From the NCBI GenBank assembly GCA_036374795.1, contig DASUTC010000137.1, forward strand, positions 1 through 35,068: a stretch of 35,068 bases of DNA, read 5' to 3'. The notes beneath the pieces are model-generated. The model was given only the letters and a program-made list of their open reading frames with translations, did not search any database and was not told the DNA's origin. Origin of the DNA: Herpetosiphonaceae bacterium. Its GTDB lineage: Bacteria; Chloroflexota; Chloroflexia; Chloroflexales; Kallotenuaceae. Of the stretch, positions 7,431 through 35,068 are shown one piece after another (position 1 is the first letter of the stretch; every line of letters begins with the position of its first letter). The position numbers and the translations under genes are program-made.

Positions 7431-7590
7431 TCCTACCAGTGCTGGCTCGGTGTCGCGCTGTCCCACGTCATCCTGCCAGTGGCCCGGTGTAGAGCGTCGT
7501 TGTGCGTGCCGTGGGGATGCCAATGGACCGCGCTGCCGGGCAACCGCCCTCCAGCCGACGCACTGGTTGCTACCACAGGAGGATGCCCTG

Positions 7591-10500
7591 ATGACTACGA
7601 CTGTCGATACGCTGCCTGACCTGACTGTCGAACGCTTTCAGCGTGACTTCCTCGACCATCTGCGCGCCGTGCGTGGCGTCGACCTCGACGCCGCCTCCCG
7701 CGTCGACTGCTACCATGCGCTGGCCCATACCCTCCGCCGCTCCATGTTGCCCCGCGCACTCGACACCCGCCGCACCCAGGTTCACGCCCACGCCAAATGG
7801 GTCTACTACCTCTCAGCCGAGTATCTGCTCGGTCGCCAACTGGCGAACAACCTGCTCAGCGCGGATCTGACCGCCATCGCCCGGCAGGCATTGACGGCAC
7901 TCGGCCTGAGCCTGGATGAGCTGGGCGACGTCGAGATCGAGCCGGGCCTGGGCAACGGCGGCCTTGGGCGACTCGCCGCCTGCTTTCTCGATGCGGCGGC
8001 GGCGCTCAAGTTGCCGATGGTGGGCTATGGCATCCGCTACGAGTACGGCATCTTCCGCCAGACGCTGGTCGATGGCTGGCAGGTGGAGCGTCCTGACGAA
8101 TGGATGCTGCTCGGCAATCCCTGGGAGCTGCCGCACCCCGAACTTGCCGTCACGGTGGGCTTCGGCGGGCACACCGAGGCGTTCACCGACGCCTATGGGC
8201 GGTACCGCGTGCGCTGGCGACCGGCGCGCACGGTCCTGGGCATTCCCTACTACTACCTCGTCCCTGGCTACCGCAGCGGCACGATCAACAGCTTGCGGTT
8301 GTGGAGCGCCCAGGCCACCGAAGCCTTCAACCTGGACATCTTCAATCGCGGTGACTATACCCGCGCCGTCCAGGACAAAACCCAATCCGAAACGATCTCC
8401 AAGGTGCTGTATCCAGTCGACGAGACGCCCCAGGGTCGACAGCTCCGCCTCGAACAGCAGTACTTCTTTGTGGCCTGTTCGCTACGAGACATACTCCGGC
8501 GATTGCCGGACGAGGTCGACCTGGACCGCCTGCCTGAGCAGGCCGTCATCCAGCTGAACGACACGCATCCGACGGTTGCCATCCCCGAAATGATGCGCCT
8601 GCTGGTCGACGAGTACCTGCTCCCCTGGGAGCGCGCCTGGGCGATCACCCAGCAGCTCTTCGCCTATACCTGCCATACCCTGCTGCCGGAGGCGCTGGAA
8701 ACCTGGCCGGTCAGCCTCTTCGAGCAACTGCTGCCGCGCCATCTGGAGATCATCTACGAGATCAACCGGCGCTTCCTCGACACGGTCCGGCGGCATGACC
8801 CCGGCGATGAGGACCGGGTGCGGCGCATGTCGCTCATCGAGGAGCAGCCAGAGCGCCGCGTGCGCATGGCGCATCTTGCCGCTGTCGGCAGCTTCAAGAT
8901 CAATGGTGTTGCTGCGTTGCACTCGACGCTGCTCCGCGACCGGGTGCTCACGGATTTCGCCGACCTCTGGCCCGACAAGTTCACCAATGTGACCAACGGC
9001 GTGACGCCGCGCCGCTTCGTGCACCTCGCCAACCCCGCGCTGTCGGACCTGATCACCGCGACGATTGGTGGTGCTTGGCTGACCGATCTCGATCAGCTGA
9101 AGCGGCTGGAACCCTCTGCTGAGGACGCCGGATTCCGGGCACGCTGGCGGGAGATCAAACAGCACAACAAGCAGGCGCTAGCCACGCTGATCGCGGAGAG
9201 CACCGGTGTTGGTGTCCGACCTGACGCGATGTTCGATATTATGGCGAAGCGGCTGCATGAATACAAGCGACAGCTGCTCAAGCTTCTGCACGTCATCACC
9301 CTGTACAATCGCATCAAGGCCGACCCGCACGAAGATCGTGTCCCGCGGGTCGTCTGCTTTGCGGCCAAGGCGGCACCGGGCTATCGGATGGCAAAGCTGA
9401 TCATCAAGCTGATTAACGACGTGGCACGGGTGGTCAACGCCGACCCGGACGTTGGCGATCGGTTGAAGGTGGTCTTCCTGCCCAACTTCAATGTTACCCT
9501 GGCGGAGCGCATCTACCCGGCCGCCGACCTGTCCGAGCAGATTTCGTTGGCCGGGAAAGAAGCGTCGGGCACCGGGAATATGAAATTCGCGCTCAACGGT
9601 GCTCTCACGATTGGCACGCTGGATGGGGCAAATGTCGAGATTCGGGATCTCGTTGGTGCCGACAACTTCTTCCTCTTCGGCCTCACCGAGGATCAGGCCA
9701 CGGCGACACGCGGCGGGGGCTATACTCCCCGCGCGTATGCCGCGCGCAATCCCATGCTCACGCAGGCGCTAGACCAGATTGCGGCAGGCGTGTTCTCACC
9801 GCAGGCGCCGGATCTGTTTCAGCCCATCGTCCAGCAGTTGCTGGATCGTGACGAGTTCTTGCTGCTGGCCGACTATGCCTCCTACGTCGAGCGCCAGGAT
9901 GAGGTGGACCAGGCCTACCGCGACGTGGAGCGGTGGACGCGCATGGCAATCCTGAACACCGCACGTTGCGGCTATTTCTCGTCCGACCGCAGCGTGCGCG
10001 AGTATGCCACCCGGATCTGGCAGGTGGTCCCGGTGGATGTGGCGGCAGGCGAGCGGTCGGGAGCGAGCCATCGGCGTGACGATGCACGACGCGCCGCGCA
10101 GGCGGCCGGCGCGAACCTCACCGACGCCGAATGGGAGTTGCTGAGTCGTGCACCGGTGGTCATCAGTCGCGTCATGGTCGCGGCGGTCAACAGCAGCGTG
10201 ATTGGGACGGTGCAGGAAGAAGGGGCGATGGTCCAGGTGCCAGGCGCGATCAGGCGCCGCTATGGGGCTAACCCGCTGATCCGAGCGGTGCTGGCGGAGA
10301 TGAAGGTGCGCCGTGGGCCGCGATTGGCGCCCAGCAGGACCCAGGACGGCGCGCCGACGAGGCAGCGCACGCCGAGCATCGCGGAGGCACAGGCACTCTG
10401 CATCCAGATCGCGGAGATCCTGGCGCAGAAGACGCCTGAGGCACAGGCGGCGGAGTTCAAGGAGTGGCTGCTGGAGACGGCTGCAACGGTCGCGAACGCG

Positions 10501-10602
10501 GCCTCGGAGGGTGGCATGATGGCACACGCCGACACGACGAGCAGTGATGGAACAACGCCGCTGCGGCAGGCCCTGCGGGAGGCGCTGCGGGTCGTGGCGT
10601 AG
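7591..10602 (+). CDS. glgP: Glycogen/alpha-glucan phosphorylase with an extra C-terminal domain
   Basis: This enzyme releases glucose 1-phosphate from the ends of glycogen or maltodextrin using pyridoxal phosphate (family GT35). The start at 7591 has AGGAGG eight bases upstream; the frame remains open to 7450 but without a start signal. The catalytic part covers residues 1-817 of 1003. It includes the glycine-rich EPGLGNGGLGRLAACF segment and the cofactor signature EASGTGNMKFALNGALTIG, in which Lys665 should bind pyridoxal phosphate. Usual bacterial phosphorylases end near residue 815-840. Here a linker (818-842) leads to about 160 extra residues. That part begins LTDAEWELLSRAP and contains a FKEWLLETAATVANAASEGG helix. 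From memory it resembles a small helical domain found alone in some bacteria. No other glycogen gene is next to it. Confidence 0.93.
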   Translation: MTTTVDTLPDLTVERFQRDFLDHLRAVRGVDLDAASRVDCYHALAHTLRRSMLPRALDTRRTQVHAHAKWVYYLSAEYLLGRQLANNLLSADLTAIARQALTALGLSLDELGDVEIEPGLGNGGLGRLAACFLDAAAALKLPMVGYGIRYEYGIFRQTLVDGWQVERPDEWMLLGNPWELPHPELAVTVGFGGHTEAFTDAYGRYRVRWRPARTVLGIPYYYLVPGYRSGTINSLRLWSAQATEAFNLDIFNRGDYTRAVQDKTQSETISKVLYPVDETPQGRQLRLEQQYFFVACSLRDILRRLPDEVDLDRLPEQAVIQLNDTHPTVAIPEMMRLLVDEYLLPWERAWAITQQLFAYTCHTLLPEALETWPVSLFEQLLPRHLEIIYEINRRFLDTVRRHDPGDEDRVRRMSLIEEQPERRVRMAHLAAVGSFKINGVAALHSTLLRDRVLTDFADLWPDKFTNVTNGVTPRRFVHLANPALSDLITATIGGAWLTDLDQLKRLEPSAEDAGFRARWREIKQHNKQALATLIAESTGVGVRPDAMFDIMAKRLHEYKRQLLKLLHVITLYNRIKADPHEDRVPRVVCFAAKAAPGYRMAKLIIKLINDVARVVNADPDVGDRLKVVFLPNFNVTLAERIYPAADLSEQISLAGKEASGTGNMKFALNGALTIGTLDGANVEIRDLVGADNFFLFGLTEDQATATRGGGYTPRAYAARNPMLTQALDQIAAGVFSPQAPDLFQPIVQQLLDRDEFLLLADYASYVERQDEVDQAYRDVERWTRMAILNTARCGYFSSDRSVREYATRIWQVVPVDVAAGERSGASHRRDDARRAAQAAGANLTDAEWELLSRAPVVISRVMVAAVNSSVIGTVQEEGAMVQVPGAIRRRYGANPLIRAVLAEMKVRRGPRLAPSRTQDGAPTRQRTPSIAEAQALCIQIAEILAQKTPEAQAAEFKEWLLETAATVANAASEGGMMAHADTTSSDGTTPLRQALREALRVVA

Positions 10603-20714: not shown

Positions 20715-23700
20715 TCAGGACTTGCCCATCAGCGCGACCAGATCGGCAATCGTTGGACGCGCTACGAATGCCTGCACCGATAGTGTAATGCGGAAGACAC
20801 GGCGGAGCCTGGAGATGAGTCGCGCGGCAACGATCGAATCGCCCCCGAGATCAAAAAAGTCATCGAAGACGCCAACCTGGTTGAGGCTGAGAAACTCACA
20901 CCAGATACGAGCGAGCTGCTCCTCGATAGGCGTTCTGGGGAGCACAAACTCCACGTCCAGGTCAGGGCGATCGGGATCGGGCACCGGTAAGGCTTGACGA
21001 TCGATCTTGCCGTGTGGCGTGCGGGGCATGCGCTCCAGGAAGACAAGCGCCGCCGGGATCATCGACGCTGGCAGCCTGTCCTTCAAGAAGGAGCGGAGCT
21101 CGATACTGCTGAGGTCCAGGCCCTGATCTCCAGCGTCCCGGCGCGCTCTGGTGCTCGGTGCTCGGTGCTTCGTTCCTGGCTCTCTCACCACATACGCCAC
21201 CAGTCGCGTGTCGTCGCTCTCCGCCTGCCGCGCGACGACGGCAACCTCACGTACCCCGGGATGCCGGGCTAGCACCTCTGCCACCTCGCCGGGCTCGATG
21301 CGCTGCCCACGAATCTTGACCTGATCATCGATCCTTCCCAGGAACGCAAGCACGCCGTCGGGCAGATAGCGGGCAAGATCGCCCGTCCGGTAGAGCCGCG
21401 TGCCCGGTTTCCGACTGAACGGATGGGGCACGAAGCGCTCGGCGGTGAGGTCGGGCCGCCCGTGGTAGCCGCGCGCGAGCTGCACGCCGCCGATGTACAA
21501 TTCGCCATAGCCGCCTACGGGCACCGGGCGAAGATCACGATCGAGCAGGTAGATCTCCGTATTGGCTATGGGCCGCCCGATCGGCACGGTGGAGAGCCCG
21601 GTGTCACGCCCACAGGCCCAGGCGGTCACGTCGATGGCGGCCTCGGTCGGGCCGTAGAGGTTGTGCAGCTCGGCGTGCAGCTTGGTGAAGAAACGCTGTT
21701 GCAGCGCAAGCGGCAGGGGCTCGCCGCTACAGATCACGCGGCGCAGCGAGGTGCAGCGATCGAGATCAGGCTCGTCAAGCAAGACCTGCAACATCGAGGG
21801 CACGAAGTGCAGCGTCGTGATGCGCTCGCGGGTCATCAGCTCGACCAGATAGGCGGGGTCCTGGTGGCCGCCGGGTTTGGCGACGACGAGGGTGGCGCCA
21901 CTCAGCAGCGGCCAGAAGAACTCCCAGACCGAGACATCGAAGCTACACGGCGTCTTTTGCAGCACGCGGTCGGAGGCGTCGAGCCGGTAGGCGTCCTGCA
22001 TCCAGCAGAGCCGGTTGACGATCGCGCGGTGTGACATCTGGACGCCCTTGGGCCGTCCGGTCGAGCCGGAGGTGTACATGATGTAGGCGAGATTGTCGGG
22101 ATCGGCGCGGCAGATGACACTGGTTGTCGGCTGGGCCTCGATCTGCGGCCAGTCCACATCGAGGCACACGATGCGTGCCGTCGTCTCTGGCAGATGCGTG
22201 TGCCGCCGATCAGCGGTCAGCAGCACGGCGATGTGCGCATCCTCGGCCATGTCGGCCAGGCGATCGGGCGGATAGGCCGGATCGAGCGGCACGTAGGCGG
22301 CGCCCGCTTTCAGCACGCCCAGCAGGCCGATCAGCAGCTCAAGCGAGCGATCGAGACACAGCCCAACCCGCGACTCAGGCCGCACGCCTAGCGAACGCAG
22401 GTGATGCGCGAGCTGATTGGCGCGCCGATCCAGCTCGTGATAGGTCAGGCATTGCTCACCGAAGATGACCGCGGTGGCATCCGGCGTGCGCCGCGCCTGC
22501 TCGGCACAGAGCTGATGCAAACACTGATTGGCCGCAGCGGTGGCCTCAGGTGTATCACGAGCAACCAGGCGATCCTGGCGCTGCGCCTCGGGCACCAGGG
22601 GGACGCGCGACACATCGACGTCAGGATCATGGACCAGCCCTGCCAGCAGCGTTTGCAGGTAGGTCAGCCAGCGATGAATCGTCTGGGCGTCGAAGAGATC
22701 GGTGTTGTACTCGCATTGGAGGTCCAGGTGATCATCCGCTTCTATGACTTGCAGCGATAGATCGAAGCGGGCAGCGCCATGGACATGCGTGACCGGTTGG
22801 ACCCGTAGATTGTAGAGCTCAATGGCTCTGCCGCCGGTTTCCAGGTTAAAGACTGCCCGTATCCGCGCGCTGCGCCGATCATGCTGTCCGGTGCCGATCT
22901 GCGTGAGGAGCCTGCTGAATGGGCCGTGCTGGTTGTCGTACGCATCCAGCACGGTCCGTCGCACGCGGGAAAGATACGCACGACCGGGCAGCCCTGCTTC
23001 GATCGTGCTGCGGATCGGCAACAGATTGACACAATAGCCGGTGACATACGTATTGCGCATGCGCAGTTGTCCGGCTGCCGGAACGCCGACAATAAGATCG
23101 TGCTGTCCGCTCACGCGGTGGAGGACCAGGCTCCATGCGGCCAGGAGGATCATCAGGAGCGAGCAACCCTGCTGCTTCGCCGCCTCCTTGATCTGCCGAC
23201 TGAGCACGCGATCGATCGCGATCACGGTGCGCGCGCCATGAAAGGTCGGCAGCGATGGTCGCGGATGGTCGGTCGGCAGCTCCAAGATCGGGATCGTATC
23301 GGCGAAGCGTTGCAGCCAGTACACCTCCGCCTGTGCCACCTCGTGCCCGAGGCTTGACCGCCACTGCACGTAATCCCTAAATTGCAGCGGAGTCGGGAGC
23401 TCAGCGATCTGTCCCTGGCAGGCCGCCCAGTAGCAGGCGCTGATCTCGTTGAAGATGATCGCTCCCGACCAGCTATCCGTTATGATATGGTGCAGCGTCG
23501 TCAGCAGGAGGTGCTCATGCTCGTGCAGCTTCACCAGCAGAAATCGGCACAACGGTCCTGCTTCGAGATCAAACGGCTGGCGAGCATGTCGGTCGATCAG
23601 GGTCGTCGCCTGCTCCTCGCGCTGCCTGCGCTCAAGCATGGAAAGGTCAATCAGCGGCAGATCGACGCGCAGCACCGGCGCGACGCGCTGGTACGCTCCC

Positions 23701-26700
23701 TCGTGGCTCACGGTAGTGCGCAGCGATTCGTGACGATCGACAACCTGCTGGATCGCGGCCTGCATGGCCTTGACATCCAGGGGGCCGCTGAGCCGCAGGG
23801 CCAGCGGCTCGTTATAGACGCTCGCGTCGCTCCCCGCTATCTGCGCGGCGGCCCACAGCGCTTGCTGAGACTCCGTGAGCGGAAAGGTGAGCATCTCCGT
23901 GCTCGTATCAGCGCCGGTTGCGCCTGCTGCCTGAGGAGCCGATGCGCGGACCCGATGGGTCGGTCGGTCCTGGTCGTCCGGCTGGACCGCCGACGCCCGT
24001 CGAGCGGCCTCGGCTCTCAAGACGCTCAGGTGGCCGAGACTCTCCAGCACCAGCGACGAATCGATCCCGAAATCGATCAAGCAGGCGATCTCAGTGACAC
24101 CGCTTGCGGATAGTTGCTCGACAACCGGTAAGCAAGAGCGTACCGTTCCGATCAACGTTCCGCCTCGCGCAATCCGTAAGGCGGCCTGCTCCAGGAGATA
24201 GGCGTGCTCAACGTCGGGTATGCGCTCCATGTCGATCTGCCGCCCCTGGCCGCTTGCCCGATGGTTGAGTCCCAGCGAGGCGTTCAAGTAGCTGTAGAGC
24301 GGCTGGCGGGCCGTTTCGATCGCGGCTGCATGATCGTCGGCCAGGTACGTATGAATCAGGGCGGTGACGTGCCCGGATGCGGGATCGATGCCATGCCGCG
24401 CCAGCGATTGTCGGTACAGGCGGATGTTCTCGGCCAGGGCTTCGATCGATTGACCAATCAAATTGACCAGCACGCCTGCTCCAAGCGCTCCCGCTGTGAC
24501 GAAGGTTTCGGGCTGCGCACAGGCGAGCCAGATCGGAAGCTCAGCCTGCCACGGCATCGGGTAGAGTCTGGCCGCAAGGCGGCTTTGAGCGCCGCCCTGG
24601 ACCGCGATGCTTTCCCCACGCCAGAGCTGCCGCACGATCTCGATGCCCTCCAGCATCACGTCGCGGCGACGGTGATACTTCTCAGGCGCGAACACAAAGT
24701 CGTCGGGGTGCCAGCCAGGGGCAAACGCAATACCCACGCGGCCCTTCGAGATGTTATCTACGACCGACCACTCTTCGGCGACGCGGATTGGATGGTGCAG
24801 CGGCAGCGCGACGCTGCCCGCGCGAATGTGGATCCGCTCTGTGGCGCGTGCGAGGGCTGCCGCGATAACCGAAGGGTTCGGTGAAAACCCGCCAAATGAG
24901 TGGAAATGGCGCTCCGGTATCCACACCGCTGCAAAGCCGTGGTCGTCGGCGAAGTCGGCGCCCTGAAACAATAGATCGTACTTCTTCGGATCGAAGGCCG
25001 CCGGGTAGTTGCCAAAATAGTACAGGCTGAACTCCAGATCCCGGCAGCGCGTCTGTTCGGCTGCGGTTGCCGCTCCGGCACCGCTCCGGGCACGGACGCG
25101 CCGTGCTTCGGGCAGGGCGCTCAGGTGCGCACCCGAAACCGATCGGAGGGCGGCAGCGGGCATGGCGGCGTCATGACGGTCGATCGGGATGGATCGTTCT
25201 ACGCCCGCCCCGGCTTTGGGCGGTACCTCCGAGAGGAAACCACCACGGCGCAGATCGGCAATCGTATCCTTGACCGACCGGATCAGATGCTCACTCTCTG
25301 CATCGCTATGAGCCGTCGAAAGAAAGAAATTGCCGCCTTCCCAGGTATGAATGCCCTGGTGCGTCAGGTGATACCTGAACAGCTCCAGGTGGTGCGCCGC
25401 ATCGGGCATCGTGAAACGAAATACCGATCCAAAGTGGACCACGTGCAACGGGACGTGCTCGGCCTGAAAGAAGCGGTTCAGGGTCGCAACCAGCGCGGCT
25501 GTCCTGCGATTCAATGCTTCTTGGAGGGCCGGTCCCTGCGCTGTGATGTGCTTGAGGACCGCCAGGGCCGAGGCCATCGTCAGCGGATGCTTGAAGAAGG
25601 CGCCCGCAAACATTGTTTTTTCGGCCTGTGGATACGAGTCGTCTCCGTAGCTCCACATGCCGCCATCAACGGCATCCATGTAGGCCGCTTTACCTCCGAT
25701 CACGCCTATCGGCAGGCCGCCGCCGACGATCTTGCCATACGTGACGATATCCGCCCGGATGCCGAACCACGCCTGCGCCCCGCCGGGGTGAATCCGAAAT
25801 CCAGTCACCATCTCATCAAAGATCAGGGCGATCCCGGCCTGCTCGGTAAGCGCTCGGAGGGCACGAAGGAAGGCAGCAGGCTGGAGATCCAGGCGGCGGC
25901 TCTGAACCGGCTCGACCAACACCGCGGCAAGCTCGTGGGCATGGGCGCGAATCGTGTCGAGCGCATCAGGATGGTCATAGGGCAGGACCAGGAGGTCTTC
26001 GACGGCGTGGGGTGGTACTCCCGGCGCGCTGGGAATCGCTGGCAGGTGGCCGTCGGTCGTGGTCTGTCGGGCCAGAGTTCCATCCGCCCAGCCGTGGTAC
26101 GAGCCCGCGAAGCAGGCTACCTTCGTGCGCCTGGTAGCAGTGCGCGCAATCCGTAGCGCGCCCATCACCGCCTCGGTTCCCGAGTTGCAGAAGGCGACGC
26201 GCTCAGCGCCCGTCAGCGCCCGGATCAGATGCGCGACCTCACCGGCAAGCGGGCTCTGAGGACCCAGCGGCACGCCGCTGCGAAGCTGCTCTTCGAGCGC
26301 CGCGATAATAAAGGGCGGCGCATGTCCGAATAGGTGGACGCCGAAACCCATCGTAAAGTCCACATACTCGTTGCCGTCGACGTCCCAGAGGCGCGCGCCA
26401 GCCGAGCGCTCTCCCGTGATCGGATAGACAAGCTCTTTCCAGGCCAGACGAAAGGCCGCTGTCCAACGGCTATCAGCGAGCACGGGACGGTAGTGCTGGG
26501 CCAGGTCTTTCGAGCGCCGGGTGCGCCGGGTGTAGCGGGCAACGAAGTCTGCAAGGTAGCGCTGCTGCTGCTCGGTGAACTGGAGCCTGCTGTGAGGCAT
26601 TAGGGGCTGGTGCGGCACAAACGGCGCAGGCGCGGTGGTGCGGGAGCCGCTCTGCGGCGCTGCCGGGGGAGCAGGAGGTGCGCCAGATGGGAGCACCCGA

Positions 26701-29700
26701 TCGTGAGTCGCCTGGATGCCGGTGGTGTGCAGGTGCTTGAGCATGTCCAGCTGCTGCGCCATCAGGTGAAGCTGCTGGGAGATCACCCGCTCCAGGGCGC
26801 TGTCGGCATCGGGCGCTGCCGCGTGCAAGGCCGCGACAGCGCCGCCGACAGCCGCCTCATACGCGGGTGCCGGCTGCGGCGCGGTCGGTGGCGTGCTGTC
26901 TGAGCGCACCGCAGGCTGATCCTCCGGTCGTGGTACCATCTGATCGATGTAGTCGGCGACGCGATCGAGTGTAGGATAGTCTTCCAACAGTTGCGCTAGC
27001 GAGAGCCGGATGCCCCATGTATCATGGATCGCCTGATTGAGTTGAATGAGCAGCAGGGAGTCGACGCCCGCATCAAACCATGCCTGATGCATATCGAGCG
27101 CGTCGGGATCGACGCCTGTCAGACGGTTGATCACCATCCCAAGCGTTGCCAGGATGGCGGCGCGCCGTGTGGGGGCAGGCTGGGCTGTGCGCTGTACTGC
27201 GGACATCGAAGGCTGCCGATCAAGCACCGAAGGATGCCCGTGATGGGCGGCTGAAATCCAGTAGCGCTCTCGCTCGAACGGGTAGGTTGGGAGCGGAACT
27301 CGTCGATGGCCTGCTTCGGCGTGCAGACCCGTCCAGTTCACGGCGATTCCTGCAAGCCACAGCTGGCCGAGCGTCCGAAGGATGGCGGTAGTATCGGCGT
27401 GCTCTACGCCGGGCTTCCCGATCGACGTCAGCACGATCTGATCGTCCGATCTGGCTGGATGGCGTCTCGCCAGGCTGGCGAGCGTGTGCCCCGGACCAAC
27501 TTCCAGCAAGACCTGATGCTCCCGTTGGCAGAGCATCCTCATCCCCTCGGCACATCGCACCGTCTGGTGGAGATGCCTGGCCCAGTACGTGGGGTCCGTG
27601 GCCTCCGCTGCCGTGATCCAGGTGCCGGTGATGTTCGAGATGTACGGAATCTGAGGTGGATGCAGCGGTACCTGTCTCATCGTTGCCAGGAACGGCTCGA
27701 CCATAGGCTCCATCATCGATGAGTGAAACGCATGCGACACAGATACCGGCTGCGATTCGATCCCGCGCTCCTTGAGCTGCCGGGCCAGGGCCGTAACCGC
27801 ATCTTCTGATCCCGCAACCACACACGTCGTCGGCCCGTTCGTCGCCGCGAGCGAAAGATGCCGGCCATCCGACATGGACACGCGATGCAGCAGCGGTCGC
27901 ACCTCGGATTCGGCGAGGGGCAGCGCCAGCATGGCCCCACGCGGCAGATTCTGCATCAAGCACCCGCGCACTGCGACCAGCATCAGCGCATCTTCCAGCG
28001 AAAAGACGCCAGCGATACATGCGGCAACATACTCACCAAGGCTATGGCCGAGCATCGCCTGAGGCACAATCCCCCACGCTTGCCAGAGCTGTGCCAGCGC
28101 GTATTCCACCACAAAGAGCGCTGGCTGAGCAATCGAGGTTTGGCTGAGCTGTGCTGATGCCGCTGCGTGGGCAGCGGATGGGTAGAGAACGTCTCGCAGA
28201 TCCAGGCCAAGGTGTCGTTTGAGCAGCTCTGCACAACGATCGACGGAGCTACGGAAGATGGGCTCCGCTCGGTAGAGCTCTCGCATCATGGCAGGATAGT
28301 GCGCTCCCTGTCCCGGGAAGAGAAAGGCAACCGATCGTTGGCGCTCCTCGGCGATACGGCTCAAGAGCCGCTGCGGATCGCGACGTTGCAGCACCTCGAT
28401 CGCCTCTCGGGTATCGCGGCACACCAGCATCGTGCGATGGGAGAACGCCCTCCGACCGACCTGGAGCGTGGAGGCCACATCAGCCGGATCGATCTGAGGA
28501 TGCTGGGAGAGATACTCGGCGAGGTTGCGCACCGCGGCTTCGAGCGCCGTCGGTGTTTTCGCCGAAAGCGGTAACAGATGAGCCGCCCGCGATGTTGGAG
28601 GACGCTCGACGGCGGGCGCTTCTTCAAGGATAAGATGTGCGTTGGTGCCGCCTATCCCAAACGAGTTGATGCCGGCCCGGCGGGGATGCTCGCGGCGCGG
28701 CCATGCTGTGAGCGTCGTATTGACGTAGAAGAGGCCGTCGGCGAAATCTATCTGAGGATTAGGCTGCTCGAAGTTCAACGTCGCCGGAATGTGCCTGTGC
28801 TTAAGCGCCAACACGGTCTTGATCAGGCCCGCGATCCCCGCTGCGGCATCAAGATGGCCGATATTCGTTTTAACAGAACCGATCGCGCAAGCATGTCGTC
28901 TGGCGGTGCTGCGGCGAAATGCTTGATTGAGCGCTGCGACTTCGATCGGATCACCCAGGATCGTCCCGGTTCCGTGCGTCTCGATATAACCGATGGTTTC
29001 GGGGTCAACCCCGGCCAGCGAGATCGCCTCTGCGATCACCGCGGCTTGCCCATCCTGGCTGGGAGCGGTGAAGCCGACCTTGCGCGCGCCGTCATTATTA
29101 ATCGCCGAGCTTCTGATGATCGCGTGAATACAATCACCATCCGCGAGCGCATCTGCTAATCGCTTCAGCACCACGACGCCAACCCCGCTTCCAGCGATCG
29201 TGCCGGTCGCGCGCGCATCGAACGCCCGGCAATGGCCGTCGCGCGCATAGATGCTACCGGTTTGATACAGGTAGCCCGCTTGCTGGTTTGCCCGAACGGA
29301 GGCTGCTCCGGCGAGCATCAGGTCGCACTCAAAGTTGAGCAAGCTCTGACAGGCAAGGTGGATGGCGACGAGCGATGTCGAGCACGCACTCTGCACCGTG
29401 GTGCTTGGCCCTTTCAAGTTCAGTGCATACGCCAGGCGGGTGGCAAGAAAGTCTTTCTCGTTGCCAAGACCAATATGATACAGGCCAGGCGTGCGCACTA
29501 GCTCCGGATGTGAGAGAATATGATGCAGGTAGGTGTTGGGTCCGACACCTGCATACACACCGATCAGCCCTGCATAGGTTTCCGAGGTATACCCGGCATG
29601 GTCGAGCGCCGTATAGGCACACTCAAGGAAGAGGCGCTGCTGCGGGTCCATCAGCTCGGCGTCACGCCGATTGAACCCAAAGAATGCTGCGTCGAATCGG

Positions 29701-29936
29701 TCGATGTCGTCCAAGATCGCCGATGCTTTAACATAATCGGGGTTGCTGAGCAACCCCGGATCGACGCCGGTATCCAGCAGTTCACGGTCGGAGAAGAACG
29801 AAACCGACTCGATGCCGTTCTTCAGGTTGTCCCAGAACTGGTCAATATTCTTGGCTCCCGGAAACATACCGGCCATGCCAACAATGGCAATTCCCGGTAT
29901 CGACCCGACTGACTCACGCGATGTAGGAGCACTCAT
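20715..29936 (-). CDS. Hybrid PKS-NRPS: KS-AT-ACP-AMT-MOX-C-A(Ser)-PCP
   Basis: This is a 3073-residue megasynthase. KS 13-440 has Cys185, His321 and His361. AT 536-830 has GHSLGE (Ser632) and HAFH at 735-738, which indicates malonyl-CoA. ACP 925-1000 has Ser960. A class III aminotransferase (1120-1570) has pyridoxal Lys1402 in GKIVGGG and is of the mycosubtilin/iturin type that aminates beta-keto groups. A luciferase-like flavin monooxygenase (1634-1975) is of the kind that hydroxylates the alpha carbon in microginin-type lines. C 2015-2460 reads HHIITDS at 2149-2155, with Ser in place of the final Gly. A 2475-2990 has specificity residues DVWHISLIDK, which fit Ser. PCP 3005-3070 has Ser3034. 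No KR, DH, ER, TE or reductase domain is present. The start overlaps the upstream stop (ATGA) and has AAAGGA nearby. Confidence 0.93.
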   Translation of the reverse strand: MSAPTSRESVGSIPGIAIVGMAGMFPGAKNIDQFWDNLKNGIESVSFFSDRELLDTGVDPGLLSNPDYVKASAILDDIDRFDAAFFGFNRRDAELMDPQQRLFLECAYTALDHAGYTSETYAGLIGVYAGVGPNTYLHHILSHPELVRTPGLYHIGLGNEKDFLATRLAYALNLKGPSTTVQSACSTSLVAIHLACQSLLNFECDLMLAGAASVRANQQAGYLYQTGSIYARDGHCRAFDARATGTIAGSGVGVVVLKRLADALADGDCIHAIIRSSAINNDGARKVGFTAPSQDGQAAVIAEAISLAGVDPETIGYIETHGTGTILGDPIEVAALNQAFRRSTARRHACAIGSVKTNIGHLDAAAGIAGLIKTVLALKHRHIPATLNFEQPNPQIDFADGLFYVNTTLTAWPRREHPRRAGINSFGIGGTNAHLILEEAPAVERPPTSRAAHLLPLSAKTPTALEAAVRNLAEYLSQHPQIDPADVASTLQVGRRAFSHRTMLVCRDTREAIEVLQRRDPQRLLSRIAEERQRSVAFLFPGQGAHYPAMMRELYRAEPIFRSSVDRCAELLKRHLGLDLRDVLYPSAAHAAASAQLSQTSIAQPALFVVEYALAQLWQAWGIVPQAMLGHSLGEYVAACIAGVFSLEDALMLVAVRGCLMQNLPRGAMLALPLAESEVRPLLHRVSMSDGRHLSLAATNGPTTCVVAGSEDAVTALARQLKERGIESQPVSVSHAFHSSMMEPMVEPFLATMRQVPLHPPQIPYISNITGTWITAAEATDPTYWARHLHQTVRCAEGMRMLCQREHQVLLEVGPGHTLASLARRHPARSDDQIVLTSIGKPGVEHADTTAILRTLGQLWLAGIAVNWTGLHAEAGHRRVPLPTYPFERERYWISAAHHGHPSVLDRQPSMSAVQRTAQPAPTRRAAILATLGMVINRLTGVDPDALDMHQAWFDAGVDSLLLIQLNQAIHDTWGIRLSLAQLLEDYPTLDRVADYIDQMVPRPEDQPAVRSDSTPPTAPQPAPAYEAAVGGAVAALHAAAPDADSALERVISQQLHLMAQQLDMLKHLHTTGIQATHDRVLPSGAPPAPPAAPQSGSRTTAPAPFVPHQPLMPHSRLQFTEQQQRYLADFVARYTRRTRRSKDLAQHYRPVLADSRWTAAFRLAWKELVYPITGERSAGARLWDVDGNEYVDFTMGFGVHLFGHAPPFIIAALEEQLRSGVPLGPQSPLAGEVAHLIRALTGAERVAFCNSGTEAVMGALRIARTATRRTKVACFAGSYHGWADGTLARQTTTDGHLPAIPSAPGVPPHAVEDLLVLPYDHPDALDTIRAHAHELAAVLVEPVQSRRLDLQPAAFLRALRALTEQAGIALIFDEMVTGFRIHPGGAQAWFGIRADIVTYGKIVGGGLPIGVIGGKAAYMDAVDGGMWSYGDDSYPQAEKTMFAGAFFKHPLTMASALAVLKHITAQGPALQEALNRRTAALVATLNRFFQAEHVPLHVVHFGSVFRFTMPDAAHHLELFRYHLTHQGIHTWEGGNFFLSTAHSDAESEHLIRSVKDTIADLRRGGFLSEVPPKAGAGVERSIPIDRHDAAMPAAALRSVSGAHLSALPEARRVRARSGAGAATAAEQTRCRDLEFSLYYFGNYPAAFDPKKYDLLFQGADFADDHGFAAVWIPERHFHSFGGFSPNPSVIAAALARATERIHIRAGSVALPLHHPIRVAEEWSVVDNISKGRVGIAFAPGWHPDDFVFAPEKYHRRRDVMLEGIEIVRQLWRGESIAVQGGAQSRLAARLYPMPWQAELPIWLACAQPETFVTAGALGAGVLVNLIGQSIEALAENIRLYRQSLARHGIDPASGHVTALIHTYLADDHAAAIETARQPLYSYLNASLGLNHRASGQGRQIDMERIPDVEHAYLLEQAALRIARGGTLIGTVRSCLPVVEQLSASGVTEIACLIDFGIDSSLVLESLGHLSVLRAEAARRASAVQPDDQDRPTHRVRASAPQAAGATGADTSTEMLTFPLTESQQALWAAAQIAGSDASVYNEPLALRLSGPLDVKAMQAAIQQVVDRHESLRTTVSHEGAYQRVAPVLRVDLPLIDLSMLERRQREEQATTLIDRHARQPFDLEAGPLCRFLLVKLHEHEHLLLTTLHHIITDSWSGAIIFNEISACYWAACQGQIAELPTPLQFRDYVQWRSSLGHEVAQAEVYWLQRFADTIPILELPTDHPRPSLPTFHGARTVIAIDRVLSRQIKEAAKQQGCSLLMILLAAWSLVLHRVSGQHDLIVGVPAAGQLRMRNTYVTGYCVNLLPIRSTIEAGLPGRAYLSRVRRTVLDAYDNQHGPFSRLLTQIGTGQHDRRSARIRAVFNLETGGRAIELYNLRVQPVTHVHGAARFDLSLQVIEADDHLDLQCEYNTDLFDAQTIHRWLTYLQTLLAGLVHDPDVDVSRVPLVPEAQRQDRLVARDTPEATAAANQCLHQLCAEQARRTPDATAVIFGEQCLTYHELDRRANQLAHHLRSLGVRPESRVGLCLDRSLELLIGLLGVLKAGAAYVPLDPAYPPDRLADMAEDAHIAVLLTADRRHTHLPETTARIVCLDVDWPQIEAQPTTSVICRADPDNLAYIMYTSGSTGRPKGVQMSHRAIVNRLCWMQDAYRLDASDRVLQKTPCSFDVSVWEFFWPLLSGATLVVAKPGGHQDPAYLVELMTRERITTLHFVPSMLQVLLDEPDLDRCTSLRRVICSGEPLPLALQQRFFTKLHAELHNLYGPTEAAIDVTAWACGRDTGLSTVPIGRPIANTEIYLLDRDLRPVPVGGYGELYIGGVQLARGYHGRPDLTAERFVPHPFSRKPGTRLYRTGDLARYLPDGVLAFLGRIDDQVKIRGQRIEPGEVAEVLARHPGVREVAVVARQAESDDTRLVAYVVREPGTKHRAPSTRARRDAGDQGLDLSSIELRSFLKDRLPASMIPAALVFLERMPRTPHGKIDRQALPVPDPDRPDLDVEFVLPRTPIEEQLARIWCEFLSLNQVGVFDDFFDLGGDSIVAARLISRLRRVFRITLSVQAFVARPTIADLVALMGKS
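21150..21184 (-). repeat. Heptanucleotide repeat inside the Ser adenylation domain
   Basis: On the plus strand five heptamers follow one another: GGTGCTC twice, GGTGCTT, CGTTCCT and GGCTCTC. On the coding strand they read as a Pro/Thr/Arg-rich loop (EPGTKHRAPSTRARR) in the segment between LVAYVV and the LRSFLKDRLP segment. The loop is variable in adenylation domains, so the insertion is probably tolerated. Confidence 0.6.
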
Positions 29937-32900
29937 ACCTGGTCCTTTCGTCGTTTTTCCCGGCTATTAAGTGCCTCGATCCGCTGCCTGGTGCGCTGGT
30001 CGGGCTCGTAGCCATGCTCGGAGCTCTCTGGTGGAGCCTGGTCCTGCGAAAAATAGCGAGACAGCCCGCTGATCGTCGGGTGGCGGAACATCTCGACCAA
30101 TGAGATATGGTTGTTGAAGGTCTGGCATAGCTCGGTATGGATGTGGATAGCCAGCAATGAGCTTCCACCCAGGTCAAAGAAGTTGTCATGGATGCTTACC
30201 CGATCGAGGTGCAGCGCGCTGGTCCAGATCCGGGCGATCGTTTCCTCAACCTCGGTCCTCGGTGCAACAACATGCCGCTCCAGCACCAGTCGCTCCGGGC
30301 TACGTGCCAGCAGGTGCCCGCGGTCGACTTTTCCATGGAGTGTGAGCGGCAGCGTGTCGAGCGGCACCACGGAATCGGGGATCATGTATGCGGGCAAGCG
30401 CTCCCGCAGGAATGCCTGCAGCTCCGTGTGCCATATGCCACGTTGCACGGTTCGAGCTTCCCTGGTGCCGGACGCCCGCTCAGGCCCGTCACCACGCTGT
30501 TCTCCGACGACATACGCAACCAGCGTATCGCCACGGACGACGACCGCCGCCGCGCAGACGGCGGGATGCTGCTGAAGCATGGCCTCGATCTCGCCCGGCT
30601 CGATGCGGTAGCCGCGCAGCTTGACCTGCCGGTCGATCCGTCCGATGAAGTCGAGCGCGCCGTCCTCACGAAGACGGGCCAGATCGCCCGTCCGGTAGAG
30701 CCGCGCGCCCGGTGTTCGACCGAACGGATCGGGGATGAACGTGACGGCGGTCAGATCCACACGCCGGTCATAGCCGCGCGCCAGGCCCACCCCGCCGATA
30801 TAGACCTCGCCGATGACACTTACCGGCAGCGGCTGAAGATTCTTGTCAAGCACGTATACCTGCGCGTTGGCGATCGCATGACCAATCGGCGGCTGATCGG
30901 CGGAGGCGTGGCACGCGGCGATCGTCGCGCAGACCGACGCCTCGGTCGGGCCGTAGGCGTTGAAGAAGCACCGTCCAGGGGTTGCCCAGCGCTCGACGAC
31001 ATGCGCCGGGCACGTCTCGCCTGCCGCAATGACGGTGCGGAGCGCCGGGAAGTCGGCAGGTGAGAGCACCGCCAGCAGCGAGGGCGGCAGCGTGGCGATG
31101 CTGATCGCCTGCTCGCGCAGCAGATCCAGGGCGGCAACGCCTGACGACGGAGTATCGCGCGGACCCAGGCAGAGGGTAGCTCCTGCCAGGAGCGCCATCC
31201 AGATCTCGGAAACCGAGGCGTCGAAGCCGAGCGAGGCGAATTGCAGCACCCGGCTCTCGGACGTGACGCCAAAGGCGCGAATTTGTGCGGTCGCCAGGTT
31301 ACACAGCCCCCGGTGTGCAATCATCACGCCCTTGGGCTGTCCCGTCGAGCCCGACGTGTAGATGACGTATGCCAGATGATCGGGCTGCACCCCGCTAGTG
31401 AGGGTATCGCTACGCTCGCGCGCAATCGCCATCCAGTCCAGATCAAGCCGGACCACCGGCGCTGTGTGGCTGGGCAGACGTGCGACGAGGCGCTGCGTGG
31501 TGAGGAGCACGCATACCTGTGCCTCCTGCAAGATGGCGTGCAGACGCTCGGCGGGATAGGCCGGGTCGAGCGGCACGTAGCAGCCGCCCGCCTTCAGCAC
31601 GCCCAGCAGCCCCACGATCATCTCCGGCGAGCGATCGAGGCAGATGGCGACGCGCGCCTCGGCGCTGACGCCGCGTGCGCGGAGGTACCACGCCAGCTGG
31701 TTGGCCCGTCGGTTCAGCTCGCCATAGGTCATCTGTCCGTCACCGGCGATCAGTGCCGGCGCGTCGGGTGTCTGCTCCGCCTGCGCCGTGAACACATCGT
31801 GCATGCAGACGTGCCGCGGATACTCCGCCTGCGTCGCGTTCCACGCCACAAGCATCTGCTCGCGCTCCCGATCCGTCAGCAGCGGCACCTGGGCAAGCGG
31901 CTGATCGAGGTCGGTCAGCAGCGCATCGAGCACCACCTGGAGGTGGCCCAGCAGCCGTTGCGCCACCGCTGGCGTCACCCGATTCTGATCGAACGAGCAC
32001 TGGAGCGTGAGCTGCGCCGCTGGAATGACCAGCAGGCTCAGCGGATAATGCGCCTGCTGCACCACCGGCAGTTGCTCGACCTGCAGCGGAGCGACAGCCC
32101 TCAGTGCCTGGGACGCGGCGTGGAGCCCCACGAGCGGATAGTTCTCGAAGACAAACAGGCTCTCGAAGAGCGGCGTACCGGGGGGTATCGCGCTCCATGC
32201 CTGCACCTGCGGCAGCGCGCTGTACTCGTAGCGCCGCAGCTCCGCCTGCTCGCGCTGGAGCGTTGCCAGCCAGTGCCGCAGCGTCATCGTCGGCGGCAGG
32301 CGGACCCGGCGCGGCAAGGTGTTGATGAACATGCCGACCATCTGCTCCACGCCCGGCACATCCGCGGGCCGACCGGCGACCACCGTTCCAAACACGACAT
32401 CAGCGCTGCCGCTATAGCGGCTCAGCAGCAGCGCCCACGCCGCCTGCATCACTGTATTCAAGGTCAGGTGCTCCTGGCGGGCGAGCCGCTGCAGGGCCTG
32501 CGTGGTCGCCGACGGCATCTGCACCGTCCGCTCGGCGTAGGTGGGCGTGTGGCCGACGCCGACAGGCCGATCGATGCCCAGCGGCGTGGGCGCCGCGATC
32601 CCGGCCAAGGCCGTGCGCCAGTAGGCTTCGGCGGCGGACTGATCCTGCTCCTGAAGCCAGGCAAGGTAGTCTTCATAGGGCCGGGGACGGTCCAAGCGCG
32701 GTGGGTGCTCCTCGCAGGCAGCCGCGTAGCAGGTCAGCAGATCGCGGAGCACCAGCGGCAGGCTCCAGCCATCCAGGATCAGGTGATGATGAGTCCAGAC
32801 GCACTCCCAGGTCGTATCGTCGAGCCAAAACAGATGGACCCGGAGGAGGGGCGCGGATGTGAGATCAAAGCCAGCGGCGCGATCGGCAGCGCGCCAGGCA

Positions 32901-35068
32901 TCGAGCTGGCGCTGCTGCTCGTCTCCGGTCGCTGCGCGCCAGTCACGGATGGTAAAGGGGACGTCGAGCTGGCAGCGGACCACCTGATGCGGCGTGGCGA
33001 CGCGCCCCCAGAGGAAGGCCGTGCGCAAGATCGCATGGTGCGCGACGACCTGCTGCCAGGCACGCTGGAGTGCGGACACATCCAGCGTGCCTGTGAAGCG
33101 GAGGCCAACCTGCACGATATACGCACCGCTCTGCGGTGCGTAGAGCGCATGAAAGAGCAGACCCTGCTGGAGCGGCGTGAGCGGGTAGACACGTTCCACC
33201 TGCCGATCCGCTCCCACGACCTGGTCCAACTCGTGCTGTGTCAGCCGGGCCAGCGGGAAGTCCGAGGGCGTGTAGCCGCCCACATGCGGCTGTTGGCAGT
33301 GAGCGATCAATGCGCGCAGCGCCGAGACACAGGAATCCGCCAGGCCACGAATCGTCTCACGCCGGTGCGTATTAGCGCTGTAGAACCACAAGATCTGGAG
33401 CTGGCCGCCCGTTGTGCGCGCCACGACATCGAGCAGATGAGAGCGATGGGCTGCGGGACTCAGGGGCATGCCAGGCGACTCCGGCGCTAGCTGAAACAGC
33501 CCGTCGCCCGTGAGCACGTGATCGAGCTGGCCGAGATAGTTAAAGCTCAACTCAGCCTGGGGCGGCGCTGCCAGGGCAGTGTCACCGCGGAGATAGCGCA
33601 GCAGGCCATAGCCGAGGCCGTGCCGGGGGATCGCCCGCAGCTGCTCCTTGATGGTCTTGAGCGCCGGACCCGGCTCCATGCCGGGTTCGAGCTGCAAGCG
33701 CACCGGATAGAAGCTCGTCAACCAGCCGACCGTGCGCGACAGATCGACATCCTCGAACAGCTCATCGCGCCCGTGCCCTTCCAGCTCAATCAGCACGGTA
33801 TTCCGTGCCGTCCACCCCGTCAGCGCCTGGGCTAACGCCGTCAGCAGCACATCGTTAATCTGCGTGCGATAGGTGCGCGGCACCTGATGCAGCAGGGCGT
33901 GGGTTTCAGCCGCGCTCAGCGCAACGCTGAGATACTCACTGGCGGCGACGGTGTTCGGACCCAGGTCATGGTCACGCGGCAGGGCAGCCGCCTCTGCCCA
34001 CGCCGGATCGGTCCAGAAGGCCCGCTCGGCGCGTATGGCGTCGGTCTGGGCATAGGCCTGGAGGCGCCGCGCCCAGTGCTGGAATGAGGTAGTCTTGCGC
34101 GGCAGGCGCACGGCCTGACCCTGCGCCAGGTACAGGTACGCCGTCTGGAGATCGTCCAGCAGCACGCGCCAGGAGACACCATCGACCGCGAGATGATGGA
34201 TCACCAGCAGCAATCGCGCGCGCTGGGGAGGAGCGTACTGAGCATACACGAGGCGCAGGAGCGGACCGTTGACCAGATCGAGGCTCTGATGCGCGCGCTG
34301 CACCTCGGCTTGCAGCGCGCGCTGCTGCTCGTCGGCCGCCAGCTCGCACAGATCGAGCACCGTCAGGGGAGGGCTGACATCATCCACGATCATCTGCTGC
34401 CAGCCCTGGTCAAGGCGTGCATAGCGCAGCCGCAGCGCGTCGTGGTGCCGGAGCAGGCAGACGACCGCGTCGCGCAACGTGTCCACGGCGAGGGGTTGGG
34501 TGACGCTGAGCAGGATAGCCTCATTCCAGTGCTGTGGCGCGCGCTGCTGATCGAAGAAGCGGCGCTGGATGGGTGTGAGCGGCACATCGCCGACGACCAG
34601 CCCTTGCTCAGCCGTGACCGCCGTCGTAGTATTCGCCACCGTAGCCAGATCGGCGATCGTCGGGTGCTCGAAGAGCTGCCTGGGAGTCAGGTGCACGGCG
34701 GCCTGTCTGGCCCGCACGACGATCTGGAGGCTGAGGATCGAGTCGCCGCCGAGCGCGAAGAAGTTATCGTGGATGCCGACCTGGGGCAGCCCCAGCACCG
34801 CCGTCCAGATCGCGGCGAGCGTCTGCTCCACCGGGGTGCGCGGGGCAACAGGGGGATCAGGGGTGGGAATGGCTCCGGGTGCGGGCAGCGCGTCGCGATC
34901 GAGCTTGCCGTTGGGCGTCAGCGGCAGCGCTGGGAGCACCACAAACGCGCCCGGCACCATGTAGGCAGGTACGCGATCATGCAGGTACGTGCGCATGTCA
35001 GCGATCAGGGATCGGGGATCGGGGATCGGGGCAACCTCCCCTGATCCCCCAGCCCCGATCCCCGATCC
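29933..35068 (-). CDS. NRPS, 5' end outside window: (A)-PCP-E-C-A(Tyr-like)-PCP
   Basis: The frame stays open to the window edge, giving at least 1711 residues; the apparent ATG at 34996 lies inside an adenylation domain and is not the true start. Residue numbers below count from 34996. The end of an A domain covers 1-45. PCP 55-122 has Ser86 in LGGDSI. An epimerase 135-585 has HHLAVDG at 267-273 and VGWLTSFYPV. C 600-1050 opens YPLTPLQQGLLFH and has HHLILDG at 737-743, the style that accepts a D-residue. A 1063-1575 has code DASTIAAVCK, close to published Tyr and Phe codes. PCP 1580-1650 has Ser1613, followed by a charged tail (1650-1687) that may dock to the next protein. The order means an upstream D-amino acid is joined to Tyr (or Phe), then passed to the KS of the next gene. 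The stop overlaps that gene's ATG. Confidence 0.92.
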   Translation of the reverse strand, partial: GSGIGAGGSGEVAPIPDPRSLIADMRTYLHDRVPAYMVPGAFVVLPALPLTPNGKLDRDALPAPGAIPTPDPPVAPRTPVEQTLAAIWTAVLGLPQVGIHDNFFALGGDSILSLQIVVRARQAAVHLTPRQLFEHPTIADLATVANTTTAVTAEQGLVVGDVPLTPIQRRFFDQQRAPQHWNEAILLSVTQPLAVDTLRDAVVCLLRHHDALRLRYARLDQGWQQMIVDDVSPPLTVLDLCELAADEQQRALQAEVQRAHQSLDLVNGPLLRLVYAQYAPPQRARLLLVIHHLAVDGVSWRVLLDDLQTAYLYLAQGQAVRLPRKTTSFQHWARRLQAYAQTDAIRAERAFWTDPAWAEAAALPRDHDLGPNTVAASEYLSVALSAAETHALLHQVPRTYRTQINDVLLTALAQALTGWTARNTVLIELEGHGRDELFEDVDLSRTVGWLTSFYPVRLQLEPGMEPGPALKTIKEQLRAIPRHGLGYGLLRYLRGDTALAAPPQAELSFNYLGQLDHVLTGDGLFQLAPESPGMPLSPAAHRSHLLDVVARTTGGQLQILWFYSANTHRRETIRGLADSCVSALRALIAHCQQPHVGGYTPSDFPLARLTQHELDQVVGADRQVERVYPLTPLQQGLLFHALYAPQSGAYIVQVGLRFTGTLDVSALQRAWQQVVAHHAILRTAFLWGRVATPHQVVRCQLDVPFTIRDWRAATGDEQQRQLDAWRAADRAAGFDLTSAPLLRVHLFWLDDTTWECVWTHHHLILDGWSLPLVLRDLLTCYAAACEEHPPRLDRPRPYEDYLAWLQEQDQSAAEAYWRTALAGIAAPTPLGIDRPVGVGHTPTYAERTVQMPSATTQALQRLARQEHLTLNTVMQAAWALLLSRYSGSADVVFGTVVAGRPADVPGVEQMVGMFINTLPRRVRLPPTMTLRHWLATLQREQAELRRYEYSALPQVQAWSAIPPGTPLFESLFVFENYPLVGLHAASQALRAVAPLQVEQLPVVQQAHYPLSLLVIPAAQLTLQCSFDQNRVTPAVAQRLLGHLQVVLDALLTDLDQPLAQVPLLTDREREQMLVAWNATQAEYPRHVCMHDVFTAQAEQTPDAPALIAGDGQMTYGELNRRANQLAWYLRARGVSAEARVAICLDRSPEMIVGLLGVLKAGGCYVPLDPAYPAERLHAILQEAQVCVLLTTQRLVARLPSHTAPVVRLDLDWMAIARERSDTLTSGVQPDHLAYVIYTSGSTGQPKGVMIAHRGLCNLATAQIRAFGVTSESRVLQFASLGFDASVSEIWMALLAGATLCLGPRDTPSSGVAALDLLREQAISIATLPPSLLAVLSPADFPALRTVIAAGETCPAHVVERWATPGRCFFNAYGPTEASVCATIAACHASADQPPIGHAIANAQVYVLDKNLQPLPVSVIGEVYIGGVGLARGYDRRVDLTAVTFIPDPFGRTPGARLYRTGDLARLREDGALDFIGRIDRQVKLRGYRIEPGEIEAMLQQHPAVCAAAVVVRGDTLVAYVVGEQRGDGPERASGTREARTVQRGIWHTELQAFLRERLPAYMIPDSVVPLDTLPLTLHGKVDRGHLLARSPERLVLERHVVAPRTEVEETIARIWTSALHLDRVSIHDNFFDLGGSSLLAIHIHTELCQTFNNHISLVEMFRHPTISGLSRYFSQDQAPPESSEHGYEPDQRTRQRIEALNSREKRRKDQV
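35001..35068 (-). repeat. Palindromic heptanucleotide repeat inside an adenylation domain
   Basis: On the plus strand GATCAGG and three GATCGGG heptamers are followed, after a short centre, by inverted copies (TGATCCC, CGATCCC, CGATCC). The whole could fold into a long hairpin. It is read in frame on the minus strand as a Gly/Pro/Ser-rich stretch just before RTYLHDRVPAYMVP. It runs to the window edge, so its full length is unknown. Confidence 0.65.

Follow-up and report, generated by a model that had tools for sequence, protein, structure and literature searches.

We describe an internal NRPS-PKS module that, judging from its domains, would probably homologate and decorate a growing peptide. 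The PCP of one protein (P0002) would hand a peptidyl chain, with an L-Tyr-like residue at its end, to the KS of the next (P0001). The KS would condense this chain with one malonyl unit to give an ACP-bound gamma-amido-beta-keto chain. A built-in aminotransferase (AMT) would transaminate C3 and a built-in flavin monooxygenase (MOX) would hydroxylate C2; we assign no order to these steps. The positions are chosen because they are so assigned for puwainaphycin (PMC4219810) and for the floridanemamide/tychonamide family (PMC13252402). The modified unit, which the downstream C domain would join to a Ser-like residue, is predicted to be 3,4-diamino-2-hydroxy-5-(4-hydroxyphenyl)pentanoyl (residue C11H14N2O3, 222.1004 Da by hand calculation). 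Its gamma nitrogen would be acylated and its beta amine free, unless used later. Substrate, protein handover, stereochemistry, and the order and site of amination and hydroxylation are all putative.

Organisation of the assembly line

The window, meaning the whole 35,068-nucleotide stretch analysed, is one entire contig (C137) of a 7.75 Mb genome in 373 contigs. It carries two assembly-line genes, both on the minus strand; P0002 (35068-29933) is followed by P0001 (29936-20715). Stop and start overlap as ATGA (29933..29936, minus strand), with a GAAAGGA-like ribosome site upstream. The P0002 frame is still open where the contig stops (35068), so that this upstream NRPS is incomplete. What can be read directly from the sequence is the order of the domains, their intact motifs, the type of the KS, the Tyr-like code and the lack of a KR; any parts beyond the contig end and the last PCP are conjectural.

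All domains lie on the minus strand. P0002 begins with the C-terminal fragment of an A domain (34835..35068, open to the last base of the contig), the PCP of that preceding module (34631..34834; PF00550; GGDS) and an epimerization domain (33269..34603; PF00668, with the HHxxxDG motif as HHLAVDG and the TIGR01720 post-E segment). The Tyr-like module consists of a C domain (31841..33205, P0002 residues 625-1073; PF00668; HHHLILDGW), an A domain (30305..31798; TIGR01733, 457.6 bits) and a PCP (30023..30232; PF00550; GGSS). A basic C-terminal tail (DQRTRQRIEALNSREKRRKDQV; 29936..30022) completes the protein.

P0001 is one 3073-aa frame. Its KS (28617..29897; PF00109/PF02801) has intact CSTS, HGTG and NIGH motifs. 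The AT (27339..28331; PF00698) is malonyl-type by its GHSLGEY and SHAFHS motifs, read by eye, and the ACP (26922..27161; second PF00550 stretch) contains GVDSL. The AMT (25212..26501) is a class-III aminotransferase (PF00202, 2e-51; 543.6 bits to its nearest solved relative, the MycA AMT, 6kfm_A). The MOX (24012..25031) is an FMN-dependent luciferase-like monooxygenase of the MupA/Atu3671 type, scoring 459.6 bits against TIGR04020 (cut-off 244) and 433.9 bits against PuwE (6ket_A). A C domain (22557..23894; PF00668), an A domain (20982..22511; TIGR01733, 482 bits) and a terminal PCP (20724..20927; PF00550) complete the protein.

An earlier note on this DNA had proposed a Tyr-like module leading into KS-AT(malonyl)-ACP, with AMT and MOX in the same protein. 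The domain scans bear out this order and its strand. As the note also claimed, a ketoreductase is absent: the Pfam scan of P0001 has no KR, and the KR, DH, ER and TE families had no match in that scan of the assembly-line proteins. Of the two ends that it gave to the line, 23894 and 34996, the second is no gene start, the frame being open to 35068. The first marks the start of the downstream C domain; from there P0001 extends through C-A(Ser-like)-PCP as far as 20715, and these domains too are part of the assembly line. Nor does the line begin with the Tyr-like module, which comes after an A-domain fragment and a PCP-E.

After P0001 there is no TE and no further minus-strand gene; the frame stops a few residues past the last PCP. 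With its upstream part cut off and a TE lacking, the line allows only a partial check of colinearity. The genes past P0001 are an HTH-TPR gene on the opposite strand and those for a beta-propeller protein, a CheB/CheR/PAS kinase and a protein resembling glycogen phosphorylase. These neighbours are non-biosynthetic and unrelated to the line. For the 1050-aa glycogen phosphorylase-family protein (7450-10602, plus strand), a search of seven related genomes gave nothing at E <= 1e-100. When the last 169 bases of the window were compared with its own genome for the missing part of P0002, about 40 NRPS places (74-92%) and no exact overlap were found. Contamination was considered and rejected. The composition of the NRPS part agrees with that of other NRPS contigs of the genome (r 0.97) and the window therefore probably belongs to it.

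Predicted substrates of the A domains

A-domain codes were extracted by alignment to GrsA (1amu). The upstream code, DASTIAAVCK, differs at two residues from that of GrsA and at one from that of CepA, a Tyr domain with the code DASTVAAVCK (PMC11355689, Table 1). W239S in the GrsA Phe domain shifts preference toward Tyr (PMC11355689; PMC7242659). The code is thus best read as one for Tyr or a close aromatic acid, and the Tyr-like specificity claimed earlier is supported, 9 of 10 positions being shared with CepA. We found nothing relevant in the open literature for the exact code. A second A domain with the Tyr-like code DASTIAAVC, 67% identical to that of the window, occurs elsewhere in the genome (L134; G000:C192:33123-53122) on a contig that also bears a MOX-containing module. 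The downstream A domain has DVWHISLIDK, which we take to be a Ser code.

Integrity of the aminotransferase and monooxygenase

We aligned 97 AMTs and 30 MOXs. Every column conserved at 97% or above is kept by the window in both alignments, and changes at columns conserved at 90% or above are few. The PLP lysine column is invariant across the 97 AMT sequences. The class-III AMT and TIGR04020 MOX stand in tandem between the ACP and the next C domain. Such pairs give 3-amino-2-hydroxy units in puwainaphycin (PMC4219810) and in floridanemamide-type pathways (PMC13252402).

One of the two tailoring domains could instead be silent or act elsewhere. The unit would then be a 3,4-diamino acid that lacks the hydroxyl, or it would carry an alpha-hydroxyl and keep its beta-keto group; alternatively, MOX would oxidise another position, such as a nitrogen or a neighbouring residue. 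We consider this unlikely. NRPS-fed KS-AT-AMT modules without a MOX are common, which lends it some credit. So does the window's own genome, which also has TIGR04020 domains embedded in A domains, or placed behind a KS-AT-PCP that lacks an AMT, and thus uses the family at several sites. Against this, all highly conserved MOX and AMT columns are kept, and the AMT-MOX-C order is that of lines with 3-amino-2-hydroxy products. We thus prefer the reading in which AMT and MOX both modify the Tyr-malonate unit.

What feeds the KS

We annotated the domains of 80 loci from an AMT-MOX query, of own-genome and same-genus loci, and of further cyanobacterial, myxobacterial and proteobacterial loci. They were sampled by similarity to the window and are no census. 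Identity of the window KS to KSs that follow an amino-acid A-PCP averages 57% (best 66%), compared with 43.5% (best 45%) for KSs fed by fatty acyl-AMP ligases (FAALs). A quick tree of 88 KSs places the window in a 52-row clade (SH-aLRT 99, branch 0.43) holding 42 NRPS-fed rows and no FAAL-fed row. In an AU test on a smaller set, with an unrooted tree, constraining the window KS with the FAAL-fed rows was not rejected (p 0.35). We read this result as allowing no more than a position at the base of the NRPS-fed clade, where the test did not fix its exact place; the window KS is set apart from the FAAL-fed type by its identities and by the larger tree.

Tails that follow a PCP were compared, 26 of them followed by a KS (that of P0002 included) and 19 by a C domain. 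Mean net basic fraction is 0.21 for the 25 other KS-followed tails and -0.07 for the C-followed ones (Mann-Whitney p 2.7e-7). A basic tail after the PCP marks NRPS proteins that precede a KS, as in P0002. The P0002 tail is at the weak end, being more basic than just one of the 25 other KS-followed tails, and than 14 of the 19 C-followed ones. Immediately 5' of the KS is an amino-acid A-PCP, and malonyl AT, AMT and the lack of a KR complete the picture of an NRPS-fed KS-AT-ACP-AMT module. KS tree and identities, basic tail and ATGA overlap all uphold the claim that an NRPS feeds this KS. We saw no feeding of the kind found in microginin and puwainaphycin, by a fatty acid via FAAL/ACP or by a fatty-acyl PKS chain, within the limit set by the contig end. 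Among the proteins of the contig that we scanned, none matched a FAAL or a free ACP, the contig ending within the upstream protein.

The rest of P0001 has other relatives. KS and AT find their best matches in NRPS-fed lines; the AMT, the MOX and the C domain behind them match best to fatty-acyl lines like those of microginin and puwainaphycin. In the AMT tree the window falls with FAAL-fed AMTs, on the 38-row side of a split with SH-aLRT 99; most NRPS-fed AMTs are on the other, 22-row side, and the window is thus outside the NRPS-fed AMT lineage. The nine best matches of the downstream C domain all follow an AMT or AMT-MOX. This suggests that the C domain is adapted to a beta-amino acyl donor. 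By sequence similarity, then, the module is mosaic, its KS-AT being of the peptide-fed and its AMT-MOX-C of the microginin/puwainaphycin type. It probably arose by fusion of a peptide-fed KS-AT with an AMT-MOX-C cassette that came from a lipopeptide line. Because AMT, MOX and C are of lipopeptide type, their activity on a gamma-amido-beta-keto substrate is putative. Among 400 genomes of the phylum there is no close MOX orthologue.

This ancestry would also fit an assembly order that differs from gene order. P0001 would start the line, or take a fatty-acyl or polyketide chain made off the contig, and the product would be a lipopeptide-type beta-amino-alpha-hydroxy acid. The last gene is followed by no TE and the contig end hides the upstream part, as this explanation would allow. 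However, it sits poorly with a KS of NRPS-fed type that has no FAAL-fed KS in its clade, an overlapping gene pair in which NRPS precedes KS, a PCP tail of the KS-followed kind, and scanned contig proteins that gave no FAAL or free ACP match. We regard it as quite improbable. That the line is a decayed or truncated remnant with no product is more doubtful still, since, for all that a TE and a downstream gene are lacking and the genome is in 373 contigs, neither of the two long frames is interrupted, every domain retains intact catalytic motifs, and the 5' part is missing because the contig ends there.

Occurrence of peptide-fed AMT-MOX modules

We inspected 21 lines with a tandem AMT-MOX; in one, L252, the pair sits in overlapping frames. 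An acyl ligase precedes thirteen of the 21 (L047, L049-L051, L244-L249, L252, L259 and L261). The ligase was identified as a FAAL via NCBIfam in L047 and L245, and via its low identity (23-32%) to the amino-acid A domain in the rest; the KS tree also backs these assignments, L261 excepted. In L048 the loading region is non-amino-acid and, by eye, methyltransferase/GNAT-like. L133, in the window's own genome (G000:C191:2203-13530), has KS-AT-ACP-AMT-MOX-C-A after a PKS ACP of the same protein, also by eye. Four lines (L052, L243, L250 and L251) are left without an assigned feed. Only two of the 21 follow an amino-acid A-PCP, namely the window and L053. The earlier note had given known lines with this pair a fatty acyl substrate; in agreement, the inspected lines and the starters listed in PMC13252402 place it mostly behind fatty-acyl or other non-amino-acid starters.

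L053 (also L255) comes from a lichen MAG (CAHJWO010000115) and is the one further line with A-PCP then KS-AT-ACP-AMT-MOX that the search proposed earlier turned up. Like the window it is amino-acid-primed. Unlike in the window, where the module is internal, its A-PCP is an initiation module (code DVQFSVQVIK) adjoining housekeeping genes. Its AMT belongs to the NRPS-fed AMT clade, unlike that of the window, and its contig ends inside the MOX. A close relationship was considered and rejected: the two MOXs are 71% identical, yet other AMT-linked MOXs mostly reach 66-73% over the same stretch. Because its AMT and KS sit elsewhere in the trees, L053 is a parallel case and no orthologue.

NRPS-fed KS-AT-(ACP)-AMT modules without a MOX were found 25 times in the sample, in cyanobacteria, Bacteroidota, Acidobacteriota, Verrucomicrobiota, Pseudomonadota and others. 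The notion that amino-acid loading of such an aminotransferase is unusual is therefore not supported. Lines of Nevskia, Aquabacterium, Spirosoma, Nostoc and others lead, as in the window, from amino-acid A-PCP to KS-AT-ACP-AMT without a KR; unlike the window they have no MOX, and most of their AMTs are in another clade. Hence, the vicinal diamine, which the earlier note had singled out, is expected in these lines too and is not unique to the window. The rare part is its hydroxylated version. On these comparisons the novelty is narrowed to an NRPS-fed KS-AT-AMT combined with a MOX, with predicted chemistry.

Comparison with known systems

Microginin MicD has the same order, KS-AT-ACP-AMT-MOX-C-A-PCP, and the same predicted 3-amino-2-hydroxy outcome. 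Identity to microginin-type lines (L047, L049) is up to 60% for the AMT and about 54% for the MOX. The difference is in the feed. Microginin begins with the FAAL MicA and the ACP MicB, which feed the KS at the start of the line, whereas the window has an NRPS-type KS, internal and behind Tyr. In microginin, a fatty acyl-AMP ligase loads octanoate as the chain (PMC12250027). PuwE of puwainaphycin shares the AMT-MOX-C arrangement and has the nearest solved MOX (6ket, 434 bits); it is a PKS module-AMT-MOX-NRPS module protein whose substrate is a fatty-acyl/polyketide chain (PMC4219810). In the iturin family (MycA, ItuA and BamA) the AMT is homologous to that of the window (MycA 6kfm, 544 bits), but these proteins are FAAL-primed, lack a MOX and have a KS distant from that of the window.

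Tychonamide, floridanemamide and nostophycin also have AMT-OX modules in hybrid peptide lines, like the window, and there AMT plus MOX give 3-amino-2-hydroxy residues. A 2026 preprint groups the starters of 3-amino-2-hydroxy residues as alpha-keto acid, aromatic acid and fatty acyl, and does not describe aminoacyl or peptidyl feed of AMT-OX modules (PMC13252402). The window falls outside these three groups because its module is internal and peptide-fed. We incline, by a small measure, to the view that this is a fourth way of feeding, in which a growing peptide and not a starter acid enters an AMT-MOX module in mid-line and a statine-like vicinal diamine arises through the mosaic. The amino acid formed by the line may be previously undescribed. 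For 3,4-diamino-2-hydroxy acids, the 5-aryl-pentanoyl product and NRPS-PKS vicinal diamines we found nothing in the open literature, a search that left subscription journals largely outside.

Alpha-hydroxy-beta,gamma-diamino acids resemble the transition-state mimics of statine- and bestatin-type protease inhibitors. If our reading is correct, there is a natural route to such residues inside a peptide. AMT-MOX cassettes would not be bound to fatty or starter acids and could be placed behind a peptide, and the KS-AT/AMT-MOX-C mosaic would be a natural junction for engineers to copy.

Related lines in the wider sample

Predicted beta,gamma-diamino acid lines, in which an NRPS leads to KS-AT-AMT, are present in many phyla. 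Amino-acid-primed A-PCP-KS-AT-ACP-AMT lines (L098, L107, L108, L112, L113, L118, L122-L126 and others) are predicted to give such products; many then carry modules with the Gly-like code DILQLGMIWK. We recognise no known product of an NRPS-fed KS-AT-AMT line. Between PCP and KS, some AMT lines from Verrucomicrobiota and Bacteroidota (L081:1-1545 and L115:3746-15436) have about 350 aa that include APPRSGTSLLRVML and are sulfotransferase-like by eye.

TIGR04020 MOXs also occur inside A domains (C-A-MOX-A-PCP), several per genome. In the window's own genome these are L127, L128, L130 and L134, on contigs C256, C319, C170 and C192, and in the same-genus genome G001 they include L135 and L136. L131 (C96) and L138 (G001:C50) have KS-AT-PCP-MOX without an aminotransferase; in the KS tree, both fall together with the window. 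Within its 7.75 Mb, the window's genome (G000) has 248 condensation-domain candidates, of which 111 were scored. G001 is similarly rich, while G002 and G003, of the same genus, have only five P0002 matches each. NRPS load differs greatly within one genus.
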